A DNA stretch of 64,000 bases from positions 1,984,001-2,048,000 of the forward strand of contig NC_013037.1 of the NCBI RefSeq assembly GCF_000023125.1, read 5' to 3'. This stretch comes from Dyadobacter fermentans DSM 18053. Lineage in GTDB: Bacteria; Bacteroidota; Bacteroidia; Cytophagales; Spirosomataceae. The notes beneath the pieces are model-generated. The model saw only the letters and a list, made by a program, of their open reading frames with translations, did no database searches and was not told the DNA's origin. Shown here piece by piece: positions 17,958-55,807 of the stretch (its first letter is position 1; each line of letters begins with the position of its first letter). The translations under genes and the position numbers were made by a program.

Positions 17958-19493
17958 GTGCAGGCATATTTAAATCTGTTTGATTTCAAACAAAAAGTCA
18001 ATTACAAAAACGAAATTCTCGCCGGTCTGACAGTGGCTATGACCATGATGCCCGAATCGTTGTCATTTGCCATCCTGGCCGGCTTCCCGCCGCTGGTGGG
18101 GCTTTACGCGGCATTTATCATGGGATTGGTGACGGCCGTGTTTGGCGGCAGGCCCGGGCTGATTTCCGGCGGCGCGGGTGCCACGGCGGTGGTGCTGGTG
18201 GCGCTCATGCAAAGCCACGGGATCGAATATGTGTTCGCGGCCGTGGCGCTGGCCGGGGTTACCCAAATCGTGATCGGGGTTTTCCGGCTGGCAAAGTTCA
18301 TTCGCCTGGTGCCGCAGCCGGTCATGTATGGGTTTGTGAATGGCCTCGCGGTGATCATTTTTATGTCGCAGCTCAACCAGTTTAAAGAATCGGGCAGCGA
18401 TGGTGCGGCATGGCTTACGGGCGGGCCGCTACTGACGATGGCGGCACTGGTGGCGCTTACAATTCTGACGATCATCGTCGTTCCGCGGTTTACAAAGGCG
18501 GTACCGGCGTCGCTGGTGGCCATTATCATCGTATTCGCCGTTGTGCTGGGGTTTGGGATTGAAACAAAAACGGTAAGCGATATCGCGTCGGTGGCCGGGG
18601 GCTTCCCGCCATTCCACGTGCCGGCTATCCCGTTCGACCTCGAAACGCTGCGCATTGTGGCGCCTTATGCGCTGATTATGGCGGCGGTGGGACTGACGGA
18701 AGGCTTGCTGACCCTTAACCTGGTGGACGAGATCACCGGCACCAAAGGCAACGGCAACCGCGAATGCGTGGCGCAGGGCGGGGCCAATCTGCTGAACGGC
18801 TTCTTTTACGGAATGGGCGGCTGCCCGATGATCGCCCAAACGCTCGTGAACCTCGGCTCTGGTGCCAGGGCACGGCTGTCGGGCATTATCGCCGCGCTCA
18901 CGATCCTTTGCGTGGTATTATTCGGTGCGCCCGTTATCGGGCGCTTGCCGATAGCGGCGTTAACGGGCGTGATGATCATGGTGGCCGTGGGCACATTTGA
19001 GTGGGCGAGCTTCCGCATTATCAATAAAATGCCGCGGCAGGATGTGTTCGTCGGGATGCTGGTCGCTGCGATCACCATTTTCCTGCACAACCTCGCCCTG
19101 GCCGTGCTGATCGGAGTGATCATATCCGCGCTTGTGTTTGCCTGGGAAAGCGCCCGGCGGATCAGGGCGAGGAAGTATATCGATGAACACGGCGTGAAAC
19201 ACTACGAAATTTACGGTCCGCTCTTCTTCGCCTCCGTTTCGGCATTTAATGAAAAATTCGATGTTGCCGCCGACCCTGCACGCGTGGTCATCGACTTCCG
19301 GGAGAGCAGGATTGCGGACATGTCGGCCATCGAAGCCATCAACAAGCTCACCGGGCGCTACCGCGCGGCAGGCAAAGAGCTCCATTTGAAACACCTCAGC
19401 GAAGATTGCCGCAAGCTCCTCAAAAACGCCGAAGCCGTGATTGACATTAACCTTATAGAAGACCCTGTTTACAATGTAGCGACCGAGCGGTAG
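17958..19493 (+). CDS. SulP-family inorganic anion transporter with STAS domain
   Basis: From a GTG start at 17958 (no in-frame ATG is available before the first membrane segments) the protein has 511 residues. It has about 11-12 membrane segments, beginning with the SulP signature LTVAMTMMPESLSFAILAGFPPLVGLYAAF. A cytoplasmic STAS domain follows from about 410 to 505 (YGPLFFASVSAFNEKF, then VVIDFRESRIADMSAIEAI). SulP proteins carry sulfate, bicarbonate or other anions across the inner membrane, often coupled to Na+ or H+. The substrate cannot be told from sequence. The gene probably forms an operon with the AraC gene. Given the sulfatase in PUL 1, sulfate is one option but the loci are 10 kb apart. 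Confidence 0.9.
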   Translation: MQAYLNLFDFKQKVNYKNEILAGLTVAMTMMPESLSFAILAGFPPLVGLYAAFIMGLVTAVFGGRPGLISGGAGATAVVLVALMQSHGIEYVFAAVALAGVTQIVIGVFRLAKFIRLVPQPVMYGFVNGLAVIIFMSQLNQFKESGSDGAAWLTGGPLLTMAALVALTILTIIVVPRFTKAVPASLVAIIIVFAVVLGFGIETKTVSDIASVAGGFPPFHVPAIPFDLETLRIVAPYALIMAAVGLTEGLLTLNLVDEITGTKGNGNRECVAQGGANLLNGFFYGMGGCPMIAQTLVNLGSGARARLSGIIAALTILCVVLFGAPVIGRLPIAALTGVMIMVAVGTFEWASFRIINKMPRQDVFVGMLVAAITIFLHNLALAVLIGVIISALVFAWESARRIRARKYIDEHGVKHYEIYGPLFFASVSAFNEKFDVAADPARVVIDFRESRIADMSAIEAINKLTGRYRAAGKELHLKHLSEDCRKLLKNAEAVIDINLIEDPVYNVATER

Positions 19494-51040: not shown

Positions 51041-51907
51041 ATGACGATAGCGATTGTAGAGTCTCTGCGCACTAAACAAGATCAGATACTGGATAATTGG
51101 GTAAACCAGCGCGAACTGGCCGACGACTTCCAGGGCAATTTCAATTCATCCGACGACCTCAAAGCACAATCGTCCGAACTGCTGGACGTACTCCTGAAAG
51201 CAATCACCGCCGAAAACATCACAGACATCTACTCGGTGGATCTCGAACCGCTGTTCGATTTCATTTCCGGGCTGACCCTCTCCCGCGCCAAGCAGGGTTT
51301 TTCGCCGAGAGAAACGGCCACCTATATTTTCTCGCTGAAAGACGCGCTGTTCAAGGCCCTGGCCGAAATTGTGGGCGACAACCCGCGTGAACTGTATGAC
51401 GTTACGCTGGAACTGAGCAAATTTATCGACAATATCGGCATCATCAGCTTCGAAACCTTCATCAAGGGACGTGAGGAAGTGATCCTCAGCCAGGCCGACG
51501 AAATGGCCGAGCTATCCACGCCGGTCATCAAGGTTTGGGACGGCATTATCGCCATGCCGATCATCGGCACGCTCGACAGCGCCCGCACGCAGGTAGTGAT
51601 GGAAAACCTGTTGCAGGGAATCGTGGAAAATGAGAGCTCAATCGCCATTCTCGACATTTCGGGCGTGCCTGCGGTGGACTCGCTCGTAGCGCAGCACCTG
51701 ATCAAAACGGTAAATGCGATCCGCCTCCTCGGTGCCGACTGCATTATCAGCGGCATCCGCCCGGAAATCGCGCAAACAGTGGTGCACCTTGGCATAGATC
51801 TTTCCAAGATGGTTACAAAAGCCACCCTTGCGGGCGCTTTGAAATTTGCTTTTGGAACGCTGCAACTGGAAGTGAAACGTATGCAGAAAGAAAAATTGAA
51901 CCCGTAA
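51041..51907 (+). CDS. rsbR: RsbR-type stressosome sensor protein (RsbRD N-terminal domain plus STAS)
   Basis: The 288-residue protein has an alpha-helical N-terminal domain (about 1-150) of the RsbRD/globin-like class and a C-terminal STAS domain (about 160-275). In the STAS domain S214 (AVDSLVAQHL) and T246 (EIAQTVVHLG) match the two phosphorylation sites of Bacillus RsbR (T171 and T205), but the first is Ser here. RsbR proteins build the stressosome core and set the threshold for releasing RsbT. The gene starts an operon of six genes and is followed by rsbS after 19 bp. A weak -7-like TCGCTTTG lies at 51014-51021, upstream. Confidence 0.9.
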   Translation: MTIAIVESLRTKQDQILDNWVNQRELADDFQGNFNSSDDLKAQSSELLDVLLKAITAENITDIYSVDLEPLFDFISGLTLSRAKQGFSPRETATYIFSLKDALFKALAEIVGDNPRELYDVTLELSKFIDNIGIISFETFIKGREEVILSQADEMAELSTPVIKVWDGIIAMPIIGTLDSARTQVVMENLLQGIVENESSIAILDISGVPAVDSLVAQHLIKTVNAIRLLGADCIISGIRPEIAQTVVHLGIDLSKMVTKATLAGALKFAFGTLQLEVKRMQKEKLNP

Positions 51908-51926
51908 CGGCCTTTTACATTAATAT

Positions 51927-52325
51927 ATGGAAAGAATACCTATCCTGAAAATGGGTAAATTCCTGTTGGTTACCATTCAGGTCGATCTGTATGACAGGCT
52001 GGCGCTCACGCTGGAAGAAGATCTGATCCAGATGGTGCACAAAACAGGCGCGCGGGGCGTTCTCATCGACATTTCCGCCTTGTCCATCGTCGACTCGTTT
52101 ATGGGCAAAATCATCGGGAACATTGCGGCGATGTCCAGCATTCTCGACGCAGAAACAGTGGTGGTGGGCATGCAGCCCGCCGTCGCCATTACATTGATAG
52201 AACTTGGTCTTCCTTTGTCCGGTGTCCATACTGCCCTGAATGTAGAACGCGGGATGGCTTTACTTGCAGCGCGAATGCCCGACGAAACGGACGACATAGA
52301 TGTTGACGACAACGACGAATATTAG
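51927..52325 (+). CDS. rsbS: RsbS-type stressosome scaffold (single STAS domain)
   Basis: The 132-residue protein is a lone STAS domain (about 3-110) with an acidic tail ending DDIDVDDNDEY. S57 in SIVDSFMGK matches the RsbS phosphorylation site S59 in Bacillus. In the stressosome, RsbS traps RsbT until RsbT phosphorylates it. The 3' end overlaps rsbT by 26 bp in another frame, so the two are coupled and likely made in equal amounts. The acidic tail is encoded within that overlap and is longer than in Bacillus RsbS. Confidence 0.93.
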   Translation: MERIPILKMGKFLLVTIQVDLYDRLALTLEEDLIQMVHKTGARGVLIDISALSIVDSFMGKIIGNIAAMSSILDAETVVVGMQPAVAITLIELGLPLSGVHTALNVERGMALLAARMPDETDDIDVDDNDEY

Positions 52326-52719
52326 GGAAATCCTTTCCGTCCGTCAAGAGCGGGACGTGGTGATTTGTCGCAACAGGGTTAAAGAAGTTGCGGCCAAACT
52401 TGGTATGGGGATTGTCAACCAAACCAAACTGATCACCGCGGTAAGCGAACTGGCGCGAAACATGCTCATTTACGGAGGCGGCGGCAATGTATTGCTCCAA
52501 ACCGTAACCCGGGGCCGTGAGCCCGGCGTACAGCTCATTTTCGAAGACAAAGGCCCCGGCATAGCCGACATCAAAAAAGCCATGCAGGATGGGTTCACAA
52601 CCGGCAAGAGCATGGGCATGGGGCTCCCCGGCGCCAAGCGGCTGGTGAGTGAGTTCAGTATTGACAGTACAGTAGGAAAAGGCACTACCGTTAAAATTAT
52701 TAAGTGGAAGAATGGATAG
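52300..52719 (+). CDS. rsbT: RsbT-type serine/threonine kinase (GHKL)
   Basis: The 139-residue protein is a GHKL kinase. The N box has N54 (SELARNMLIYG), the G1 box is D83-K-G-P-G87, and the G2 box is SMGMGLPGAKRL at about 104-115. These residues match an active RsbT, which phosphorylates RsbR and RsbS and is released to activate a downstream partner. In Bacillus the partner is the RsbU phosphatase; none is present here. Its start lies inside rsbS, and its end overlaps the phosphatase gene by 8 bp. The alternative partners here are the phosphatase fusion and the histidine kinase. Confidence 0.93.
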   Translation: MLTTTTNIREILSVRQERDVVICRNRVKEVAAKLGMGIVNQTKLITAVSELARNMLIYGGGGNVLLQTVTRGREPGVQLIFEDKGPGIADIKKAMQDGFTTGKSMGMGLPGAKRLVSEFSIDSTVGKGTTVKIIKWKNG

Positions 52720-53719
52720 TGCACAACAAATTGCGTTTGACCTGAAAGACCGCAGTTCGATCACCCTCGTTAAAAAAGAAGCATCCCGGTTGGCACAAAA
52801 AATGACCCTATCGGCGAAGCAACTGGCGGAACTCGACATTATTATCAGTGAAATATCGACCAATCTCCTCAAACACGCCGGCGGCGGGGAAATTATCCTG
52901 CGGGGCATTGTGGATGGCGACACGCGTGCCGTGGAGGTGCTCAGCATCGACAGCGGCCCCGGAATGAGCGATCCCGCACGGATGATCGAAGACGGGGTGT
53001 CCACCACGGGGACATTGGGACAGGGATTAGGAGCTATCAAACGGTTATCCGACCAGTTCCAGATCTACTCGGTGCCGGGCTGGGGCACGATTTTGATGGT
53101 GAGAGTTTTTAAGCAAAACCCATCAAAAGTGAATCCTTTCAGATACGGAATCTATCCTATTGTGCTTCCGAAACCCGGCGAGCAGTATTGCGGCGACCTT
53201 TTCAGCTGGAAAGCCAATGCATATTTCCTGAAAGTCATGCTGGCCGACGGCCTCGGCCACGGTATACTGGCCCAGCAAGCCTCGGAAAAAGCGGCGGAAG
53301 CTTTTCAGAAAAGCCTTTTCAACACGCCGCATCAGATCCTGACCGACATGCATCACCAGGTGAAAAGCACACGCGGACTGGTGGCCACGGTGGGCGTGTA
53401 TGACCTGACTGCGAAAACGTGGCAGTTTTGCGGGATAGGGAATATCTCCACGAGGCTGCATGACGCGATTTCGTCCAAGTCGTACCTGCCTTATAATGGC
53501 ATCGTAGGCGTGAACATACCACGGCACCTCGAATCGCAGACGGTGAAATCGGAAGCCGGCAGGCACCTGGTGCTTTGCTCCGACGGGGTCTCCTCGCGTT
53601 GGGATGCCTCCAAGCACATCGGCGCGTTCCGGTGCGACCAGTCGATTCTCGCAGCAGTCATTTACAAGGATTTCGCACGTCATTCCGATGATACTTCCGT
53701 AGTTGTAGTCAAAACCTAG
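52712..53719 (+). CDS. GHKL ATP-binding domain fused to RsbX/SpoIIE-type PP2C phosphatase
   Basis: The 335-residue protein has two domains. Residues 1-135 form a GHKL domain (N51 in SEISTNLLKHAG, D80 in SIDSGPGM, GQGLGAIKRL). Residues 150-335 form a SpoIIE-type phosphatase with metal residues G161-D162 (YCGDLFSW), D179-G180 (LADGLGHG), D291-G292 (CSDGVSS) and D326-D327 (SDDTSVV). RsbX-type phosphatases dephosphorylate RsbR and RsbS to reset the stressosome. Having both a kinase-like domain and the phosphatase on one chain suggests a bifunctional reset enzyme. It overlaps rsbT by 8 bp and is followed by the kinase gene after 4 bp. Confidence 0.9.
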   Translation: MDSAQQIAFDLKDRSSITLVKKEASRLAQKMTLSAKQLAELDIIISEISTNLLKHAGGGEIILRGIVDGDTRAVEVLSIDSGPGMSDPARMIEDGVSTTGTLGQGLGAIKRLSDQFQIYSVPGWGTILMVRVFKQNPSKVNPFRYGIYPIVLPKPGEQYCGDLFSWKANAYFLKVMLADGLGHGILAQQASEKAAEAFQKSLFNTPHQILTDMHHQVKSTRGLVATVGVYDLTAKTWQFCGIGNISTRLHDAISSKSYLPYNGIVGVNIPRHLESQTVKSEAGRHLVLCSDGVSSRWDASKHIGAFRCDQSILAAVIYKDFARHSDDTSVVVVKT

Positions 53720-53723
53720 CCCT

Positions 53724-55400
53724 ATGCACGTCATTACCAAACTGAATCTCGACAACGACCTGGATCTGATGCTGGCCCACAAGCGGTCGATGCAGGTGGC
53801 TGAGTTTGCCGGGTTGGGGCTGGTGCATCAAACCAGCTTTGCGACGGCGGTTTCGGAAGTGTGCCGGCTGGTGCTCGATAAGGGCAGCCGCTCGCATATG
53901 ATGCTGGGTTTCCTCAAAACACCCCACGGCAAAAACAGCGTATATGCGAAGATCGTCGATACTTCCATCGGCGACATCGCGCGGGATAATCCGAACCTGG
54001 GCTACGCACGCCGGCTGGTAAGCGGTTTCAGCGTCGATCCGGATTCGATTTTGCTGCTCTTCGAAATGCCCGTCGGCTCCCGGCTGAGCAGGGAGTACAT
54101 TATTAAAGGGCAAAAACTATTTGACGAAATGCCGCCCGTGACTCCGTACGAGCAGGCAAAACAGCTGAACATGCAGCTGCAAGAAATGGCCAATAAACTG
54201 GTAGAGAGCGAAAAACGCTACCAGACATTGACCGACACGATTCCGCTGATGATGTTTACCCTTAACGACCAGGGACGCCTTCTTTTTGCCAACGAGGGTT
54301 TCAAACTTTTCGCGGGCAGCGACATTCAGAACGTCGGCGGCAACTGGATCAACTGGCTTTCGGGATGCGAGCCAAGCGTGCCCGTGGAGCAGGTCCGCGA
54401 GCAGCTTTCGGGGAATTCGGAGTTTTCGATGGAGATTTCGCTGACCAAAAAATCCAACGGCGAGCGGATCTGGCATCTGCTTTCCATGAGCCCGGTGCTC
54501 AACTCATCGACCGGCCTTCCCGAATGGGCGGGCTTCCTGGTCAACATTCACGCGCAGAAACTGGTGGAAGAAACGCTGCGCGACAATGCCGAGCTGCGCG
54601 ACACAAAAAGAGTGTTGCAAAAGCGCCAGATCGAACTCGATGCAACGATCACGGACTTGAACCGCAAAAACCAGGAACTGGCGCGCTTTGCCTACGTGGC
54701 TTCGCACGACTTGCAGGAACCTGCCCGCAAAATGATCGTGTTTTCCGAAATGCTCAACAGCCGTTTCGGGCATTTGCTCCCGGCGGACGGAACGAGCCTG
54801 CTCAACCGGGTCAAATCCGGCTCGGAGCGGATGGTAGCCGTGATCCGCGACCTGCTCGATTACTCCGGCATATCGGCCGACCAGGACATTGACGTGCACC
54901 CGATCGAACTGCTCGAAATCGTGGACCAGGTAAGGGAGCATCTGGACAAGGAAATCAGCGAATCCAATGCAGAAATACAGCTACGCGGCTCTGCTACGCT
55001 GGTCGGCAACAGGCGGCTGCTGGTGCTGCTGTTCCAGAATTTTGTGGGAAATGCGATCAAATTCGTCAGGGACGGGGCAGCCCCGCGCATTCAGATTACC
55101 TATTCTTTCCCGGCCGCGGAAGTGATCGACGCCAACGGCCTCGACCAGCAAACGACCTGGGTGCAGGTGGACGTGAGCGACAATGGCATCGGATTTGACG
55201 AAAAGCACGTCGACCGGATATTTCAGATGTTTCAGCGGCTGCACACACAGGATCAGTTCAAGGGCACAGGAATCGGGCTCGCTATTTGCAAGCGGATCAT
55301 TGAAATGCACCGCGGGAGCATCAGTGTGAAAAGCAAGATCAATCAGGGATCTGTTTTCAGTGTTTATTTACCTTACCAAATTAACCCACCTCTCTTATGA
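53724..55400 (+). CDS. Histidine kinase with degenerate RsbT-like N-terminal domain and PAS
   Basis: The 558-residue soluble protein has three parts. Residues 1-130 align by eye with RsbT from the same operon (GLGLVHQTSFATAVSEVCRLV against GMGIVNQTKLITAVSELARNM). The N-box Asn is Leu49 and the GPG of the G1 box is lost after D79, so it probably cannot bind ATP. Residues 165-285 form a PAS domain. Residues 315-555 form a kinase core with H328 (ASHDLQEPARK), N443 (FVGNAIKFV), D486-N-G-I-G490 and G514-T-G-I-G518, like phytochrome-type kinases. It overlaps the receiver gene by 4 bp. It may take input directly from the stressosome. Confidence 0.9.
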   Translation: MHVITKLNLDNDLDLMLAHKRSMQVAEFAGLGLVHQTSFATAVSEVCRLVLDKGSRSHMMLGFLKTPHGKNSVYAKIVDTSIGDIARDNPNLGYARRLVSGFSVDPDSILLLFEMPVGSRLSREYIIKGQKLFDEMPPVTPYEQAKQLNMQLQEMANKLVESEKRYQTLTDTIPLMMFTLNDQGRLLFANEGFKLFAGSDIQNVGGNWINWLSGCEPSVPVEQVREQLSGNSEFSMEISLTKKSNGERIWHLLSMSPVLNSSTGLPEWAGFLVNIHAQKLVEETLRDNAELRDTKRVLQKRQIELDATITDLNRKNQELARFAYVASHDLQEPARKMIVFSEMLNSRFGHLLPADGTSLLNRVKSGSERMVAVIRDLLDYSGISADQDIDVHPIELLEIVDQVREHLDKEISESNAEIQLRGSATLVGNRRLLVLLFQNFVGNAIKFVRDGAAPRIQITYSFPAAEVIDANGLDQQTTWVQVDVSDNGIGFDEKHVDRIFQMFQRLHTQDQFKGTGIGLAICKRIIEMHRGSISVKSKINQGSVFSVYLPYQINPPLL

Positions 55401-55807
55401 ATGTAACCGGACCTATCGTATTGGTGGAGGACGACGAGGACGATATCTTCCTGATCACGACCGCATTGGACGAATTGCGCCTCGAAAATTCGGTGAAAGT
55501 ATTCCGTAACGGCCACGACGCGCTCGATTATCTGCAGGAAACCAACCCTACACCCGTCGTCATCATCAGCGACGTCAATATGCCGGTCATGAACGGTTTC
55601 GAATTACTCGACGCGTTACTTACGCACCGCGGTTTGGGGAATACCCTACCCCCGTTCGTGTTCCTCACTACTTCCGACCCATCGGCCTTCCAATCGGCCG
55701 GTATGGACAGCGACCGCATTGCCGTGTTCACGAAGGGATATTCGTACAAAGAAATCTCCGAAACGCTTCTGTCCATTCTTGAATACAGCAAGTCGGGCTT
55801 GAAGTGA
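55397..55807 (+). CDS. Single-domain CheY/Rcp1-like response regulator
   Basis: This 136-residue protein is a receiver domain only. The acidic pocket is E11-D12-D13 (VEDDEDDIFL), phospho-acceptor D59 (ISDVNMPVMNG), with a threonine in FLTTSD and a lysine in FTKGYSYKE. It has no output domain, so it acts as a protein-binding or phosphotransfer switch. It overlaps the 3' end of the kinase gene by 4 bp, which strongly suggests the two are partners. It is the last gene of the stressosome operon. How it affects transcription is not shown by the sequence. Confidence 0.93.
   Translation: MNVTGPIVLVEDDEDDIFLITTALDELRLENSVKVFRNGHDALDYLQETNPTPVVIISDVNMPVMNGFELLDALLTHRGLGNTLPPFVFLTTSDPSAFQSAGMDSDRIAVFTKGYSYKEISETLLSILEYSKSGLK

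Follow-up and report, generated by a model that had tools for sequence, protein, structure and literature searches.

What does a stressosome act upon when its genes run not into a sigma-factor switch but into a histidine kinase (HK)? The question is raised by Dyadobacter fermentans DSM 18053, where a 64,000-nucleotide stretch of the complete 6.97-Mb genome (NC_013037.1, positions 1,984,001 to 2,048,000; hereafter the window, to which unlabelled coordinates refer) carries six + strand open reading frames (ORFs) that fill positions 51041-55807 in the order RsbR, RsbS, RsbT, RsbX-type phosphatase, HK and receiver. An original prediction, made from the letters of the window, had described these genes as tightly coupled, as ORF coordinates and Pfam confirm; it missed that the phosphatase and the HK each bear an RsbT-like N-terminal domain, degenerate in the HK. 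We show by homology that the operon encodes three predicted RsbT-type GHKL domains, namely RsbT itself and two further ones at the N-termini of the RsbX phosphatase and of the HK. The stressosome's dedicated output is probably this HK, which would read it through its built-in RsbT-like domain, by docking to the STAS core or by pairing with RsbT, rather than an RsbU-like target.

The histidine kinase carries an RsbT-derived domain

The HK (53724..55400; 558 amino acids) is made up of a pseudo-RsbT domain, a linker, a PAS domain, HisKA and HATPase_c, as delimited by Pfam and an alignment of 14 sequences. Residues 1-118 (53724..54077) go undetected by the Pfam scan. A blastp comparison, run for this one pair only, matched them to RsbT of the same operon (30% over 113 amino acids, E 2e-9), and hhalign (E 2.5e-12) backs their derivation from RsbT; derivation from the RsbX-borne domain was rejected (hhalign probability 1.6%). 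Because the model of the full-length HK reached a predicted template modelling score (pTM) of only 0.43, the domain was folded separately. Modelled alone with AlphaFold2 (AF2), it has a predicted local distance difference test score (pLDDT) of 90, and structure comparison of this predicted model gives the RsbW/SpoIIAB fold; homology to the RsbT/RsbW GHKL serine kinases is thus found in both fold and sequence. SiaB (10.8) and Leptospira LvrC (10.3) rank between the anti-sigma factors and the HK domains in one fold list. RsbT chains are absent from the fold lists and an RsbT profile matched none of the solved sequences listed, which says nothing on the fold.

The domain is followed by a mostly helical linker (residues 119-165; 54078..54218) with a conserved P-Y-x-x-x-K-x-x-N-x-x-L region. 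Residues 1-165 contain 27 invariant columns among the 14 aligned rows, and the first helix of the domain is well conserved. Asp14, invariant in these rows, is Ser in the HK of Larkinella rosea.

Loss of ATP-binding motifs under purifying selection

Motifs were counted in 335 aligned RsbT-type domains. Among RsbT rows, the G1 glycines and the first two glycines of G2 are present in 120/120 cases and the N-box Asn in 118/120 (2 gaps). RsbX-borne domains retain N and G1 in 107/108 and the first two G2 glycines in 108/108, with the third G2 glycine replaced by Ala, Ser or Thr in all 108. The G1 glycines are missing in 99/99 HK-borne domains of Bacteroidota, a set that includes repeats (90 rows without repeated loci) and that was assigned by locus number, with L107, titled Williamsia, among them. 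These rows keep the N-box Asn in 24/99, the G1 Asp in 65/99 and the second G2 glycine in 54/99, the eight residues scored leaving aside their first G2 glycine; the Glu preceding the N box is present in all 99. The set of N box, G1 and G2 needed for ATP binding is not found in HK 1-118, the HK of the window lacking the N box and G1. By sequence, HK 1-118 is a pseudokinase.

Of 83 candidate pairs, 24 were run and 23 gave a computable ratio of nonsynonymous to synonymous substitution rates (dN/dS) for the HK-borne domain, which was 0.012-0.107 in 22 of them. The pairs overlap and share genomes, and many dS values are >1, high or not computable. In the exceptional pair (L118/L127) the value was 0.32, and the other two regions were likewise raised (0.28, 0.25). 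Judged by these ratios, the HK-borne RsbT-like domain is under purifying selection despite its lost motifs.

These results bear on the view that the RsbT-like part is an inert remnant left by an old fusion, that the PAS domain alone drives the HK and that gene order is mere history. Complete loss of the G1 glycines, failure of Pfam to detect the domain and the existence of an orphan HK in Larkinella rosea would all fit such a relic, which we nevertheless regard as highly improbable in view of the invariant columns, the low dN/dS values and the retention of the domain in the 403-amino-acid HK of locus L156, where Pfam finds no PAS. Judged by eye, the 402-amino-acid HK of locus L161 looks similar.

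The kinase follows the stressosome genes in most loci

A genome-collection scan with an alignment of the HK N-terminus yielded 138 relatives, 80 of which were kept; the loci of the genome set were added and repeats removed (nine, L053-L057, L059, L060, L062 and L119), to give 91 non-redundant loci. In 87/91, the 3.6 kb upstream of the HK contain homologues of all four of RsbR, RsbS, RsbT and RsbX on the same strand, and the grouping is therefore beyond chance. The remaining four comprise L096 and L076, both at a contig edge, the former showing RsbT and RsbX only; L084, with RsbT elsewhere in its genome; and L092 of Larkinella rosea, with no RsbT match in its assembly. In Sediminibacterium roseum (L113:3604-10046), two tandem RsbR-RsbS-RsbT sets precede one RsbX and one HK.

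The receiver lies just downstream of the HK in 48/91 loci, just upstream of RsbR in 9/91 and in neither place in 35/91, one locus having both; the count is too low for L080, where the HK is broken into two frames and a receiver follows the second piece. A fixed HK-receiver partnership was therefore rejected, and the conserved unit is R-S-T-X-HK. The coupling to a receiver, part of the original prediction, was in this respect not supported as stated. An RsbT-family match (E 1e-15) occurs in 18 of 395 sampled genomes of the phylum; in the fetched stretches, eight of these 18 show a degenerate HK and one a fusion with ATP motifs.

A two-component pair by motifs and no sigma-B branch found

In addition to its N-terminal domain, the HK contains a PAS domain (about 54216-54551), HisKA (54678-54869) with His328 at 54705-54707, and HATPase_c (55008-55379). 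His328, the N-box residue and both G-box residues are kept in 14/14 aligned sequences. The receiver (55397..55807; Response_reg, PF00072) is a single domain with no output domain, and its candidate phospho-Asp59 (55571-55573) aligns with the Asp of the best solved receiver. The pair thus has the HisKA phospho-His, the N, G1 and G2 boxes and a candidate phospho-Asp. The nearest solved structure to the receiver is one present also as a bacteriophytochrome fusion in other entries, which we take to be from Deinococcus; Rcp1-type phytochrome receivers rank lower in the structure list.

RsbU_N (PF08673) matched neither the HK nor anything else in the complete genome, and among 14 control genomes it was found in B. 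subtilis only. No factor of the SigB/F/G family exceeded the cut-off in the genome (TIGR02980, best 110.7 bits, cut-off 234.35), and an output through sigma-B was rejected on both grounds. The operon (51041-55807) contains no RsbV/RsbW partner switch, and the earlier statement that RsbU, RsbV, RsbW and SigB are missing nearby is correct for the operon and the flanks read. Since the catalytic residues of the HK are kept and neither RsbU_N nor a SigB-family factor was found, a phosphorelay is the best reading of the operon's output from its genes.

The original prediction had proposed this phosphorelay, with stimulation of the HK by RsbT as a point to test, and had named the discovery of RsbU, RsbV and RsbW elsewhere as evidence to the contrary. 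A genome-wide search did find an unlinked trio at about 209.0-211.2 kb (C1, L001), consisting of a receiver-SpoIIE (REC-SpoIIE) phosphatase, a STAS protein and a weak HATPase_c_2 match (22.7 bits, cut-off 27.4); the resemblance is in name only, as the phosphatase carries a receiver in place of RsbU_N. The HK signal could in principle be received by this phosphatase at about 210 kb, the stressosome then feeding an unlinked RsbU/V/W-like switch. Beyond the presence of the three genes, with the third match below cut-off, no association was seen: at E 1e-60, REC-SpoIIE occurs in 43/47 sampled genus members and 0/51 other relatives, whereas the figures for full-length HK relatives in the same two sets are 8/47 and 5/51. 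The trio is, by this distribution, a genus-wide partner switch; as its distribution does not track that of the HK it was set aside as a weak candidate, and we think it very unlikely to be the output.

Stimulation by RsbT deserves more weight. Free RsbT might bind or phosphorylate the HK and switch it on as it does RsbU, the RsbT-like domain serving as the RsbT-binding part through a heterodimer. SpoIIAB-type GHKL proteins dimerise, and the well-conserved first helix of the HK domain would suit such an interface. There is precedent as well: RsbT orders the linker of RsbU (PMC12143880), and HKs with RsbU_N adjoin rsbT in some Proteobacteria (PMC12143880; PMC9237108). The HK studied here and its genome lack an RsbU_N match, however, and a heterodimer needs no ATP-binding kinase domain in cis, yet other phyla have one. 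We consider activation by free RsbT rather unlikely. As the HK has no detected RsbU_N and carries its own RsbT-like domain, RsbT need not stimulate it in the way it does RsbU, and that part was not supported as stated.

The stressosome core

The genes upstream of the HK form an RsbR-RsbS-RsbT-RsbX (RSTX) module: an RsbR with an N-terminal domain and STAS, a single-STAS RsbS, an RsbT with GHKL motifs and an RsbX-type PP2C phosphatase. From the ORF coordinates, gaps of 19 bp and 4 bp separate RsbR from RsbS and RsbX from the HK, and overlaps of 26, 8 and 4 bp join RsbS to RsbT, RsbT to RsbX and the HK to the receiver. RsbR (51041..51907) combines an RsbRD_N sensor-type domain (PF14361) with STAS (PF01740) and matches solved RsbR chains (best E 8.8e-34); RsbS (51927..52325) is a single STAS domain by Pfam and matches solved stressosome chains (best E 2.6e-32). 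Alignment with solved RsbR and RsbS chains places Ser or Thr of RsbR (VDSLVA, IAQTVV) and RsbS (VDSFMGK, with its candidate phospho-Ser kept) at what we take to be the positions phosphorylated in Bacillus. RsbT (52300..52719) is a GHKL serine-kinase-type switch protein (Pfam HATPase_c) with N, G1 and G2 motifs present. The phosphatase (52712..53719) has an RsbT-like N-terminal domain (about 52712-53116; HATPase_c_2, PF13581), which by motif alignment retains the N box and G1 and belongs to tree group X, fused to a SpoIIE/PP2C domain (PF07228; Pfam match 53231-53620, 36.2 bits, cut-off 25). Another STAS domain, at 19191-19439, ends an ORF that looks like a SulP transporter and lies outside the stressosome.

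Origin and spread of kinase-borne RsbT domains

A domain tree was calculated from 86 chosen and sampled rows; it has few columns, some long branches and a bootstrap that had not settled. In this tree the 36 HK-borne domains are set apart by one branch (96/91; found in 97% of 200 bootstrap trees) and the 19 RsbX-borne domains by another (99/96); the 28 Bacteroidota HK-borne domains, L166 being left out, cluster together at 100/100 with a long stem. RsbT rows are not a single group, and a Vibrio RsbT joins the RsbX-borne domains.

Locus L166 (5970-12032), from genome G282 of the same phylum, encodes RSTX followed by REC-REC-HK, an HK whose RsbT domain keeps the ATP motifs, and a receiver; from its motifs, this HK looks like the state preceding the pseudokinase. 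The sample outside the phylum consisted of plasmid records only. Among these, stressosome genes are followed by an RsbT-HK fusion that retains ATP motifs in Sphingomonas, Phaeobacter, Paraburkholderia (two records) and Deinococcus (two records). Over all HKs of this type outside the main set, N and G1 are kept in 7/8. No RsbR was found in the fetched stretch of plasmid locus L172, and the RsbR reading frame is broken up in plasmid loci L178 and L180. The RsbX-type phosphatase gene of the Deinococcus radiodurans plasmid (L178:7440-8548) is split over two reading frames. A Caballeronia plasmid (L176:8178-10202) encodes an HK-borne RsbT-like domain without the N-box Asn and G1 glycines, a loss apparently independent of that in Bacteroidota.

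A proposed mechanism

The RsbT-like domains may serve to dock their proteins onto the STAS core (RsbR/RsbS) or onto each other. RsbT would phosphorylate the core, the RsbX-borne domain would place the phosphatase at its substrate, and the pseudokinase on the HK would hold the latter on the core or pair with RsbT. Stress-driven phosphorylation by RsbT could then alter occupancy, and the helical linker of the HK dimer would come free or become ordered, in the way the linker of RsbU is ordered by RsbT in Bacillus, with a change in autokinase activity. Phosphate would pass to the operon's receiver here and to an unlinked receiver in species without one. The PAS domain, which can be absent, may provide a second input. 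More tentatively, and with less confidence than we place in the HK as output, RsbT-like domains might be a general stressosome docking tag, the HK being a subunit on the STAS core whose pseudokinase competes with RsbT and the RsbX-borne copy, such that a Ser/Thr switch gates a His-Asp phosphorelay directly in Bacteroidota, Pseudomonadota and Deinococcota.

Several observations weigh against the HK as a dedicated output that reads the stressosome through its RsbT-like domain. The full-length model has the low pTM given above, Larkinella rosea has the HK (L092:8001-9677) and no RsbT match in its assembly, and nine of the 18 RsbT-positive genomes show no RsbT-tagged HK in the fetched stretches. 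In two Variovorax records a two-domain RsbX after RsbR-RsbS-RsbT is accompanied by an HK without an RsbT-like domain, a Vibrio plasmid combines a single-domain RsbX with such an HK, and a Streptomyces plasmid carries a SpoIIE protein in the HK's place after RSTX.

Relation to known systems

That stressosomes adjoin two-component genes is already known, as the original prediction rightly said. PMC9237108 describes Gram-negative minimal RSTX operons (Vibrio vulnificus and others, Bacteroidetes among the holders) that lack SigB and are followed by outputs including HisKA/REC proteins; it reports RsbU_N for a part of these outputs and none for most, and proposes RsbT-dependent phosphorylation of the kinase. 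The operon in D. fermentans is of this kind; unlike those modules, with their globin-type RsbR and single-domain RsbX, its RsbX and HK each bear an RsbT-like domain. It also resembles RsbU and the RsbU_N-bearing HKs and diguanylate cyclases (PMC12143880) in its succession of stressosome-linked N-terminal domain, helical linker and output enzyme; RsbU_N, however, is a helical domain that dimerises and to which RsbT binds, whereas the N-terminal domain of the HK is itself RsbT-like. Unlike the anti-sigma serine kinases RsbW, SpoIIAB and UsfX, the HK-borne domain lacks the G1 glycines (Bacteroidota rows), is fused to a histidine kinase and has no sigma partner that we could see. In RsbK-RsbY of Bacillus cereus (PMC9912610, PMC4574943) a sensor kinase likewise feeds a stress response, but upstream of SigB. 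The D. fermentans kinase comes after the stressosome genes, in a genome where SigB was not found. In the literature searched, which mostly did not extend to subscription journals, we saw no mention of a stressosome HK with an RsbT-like domain.

How RsbT works where RsbU and sigma-B are missing has yet to be explained; for a Vibrio RsbT, PMC4976288 describes the downstream partner as unknown and notes that a CheY-like gene adjoins the operon. The RsbT-like domain that recurs on the output kinase offers a concrete physical link to test, and what looks like a worn-down RsbT copy on a kinase suggests how stressosomes may reach their outputs without sigma-B. If the proposed reading is true, partner switching and two-component signalling would be joined in one complex, and the HK would show how, in nature, a GHKL kinase domain has become a pseudokinase with a signalling role, as has apparently happened in one Caballeronia HK too.

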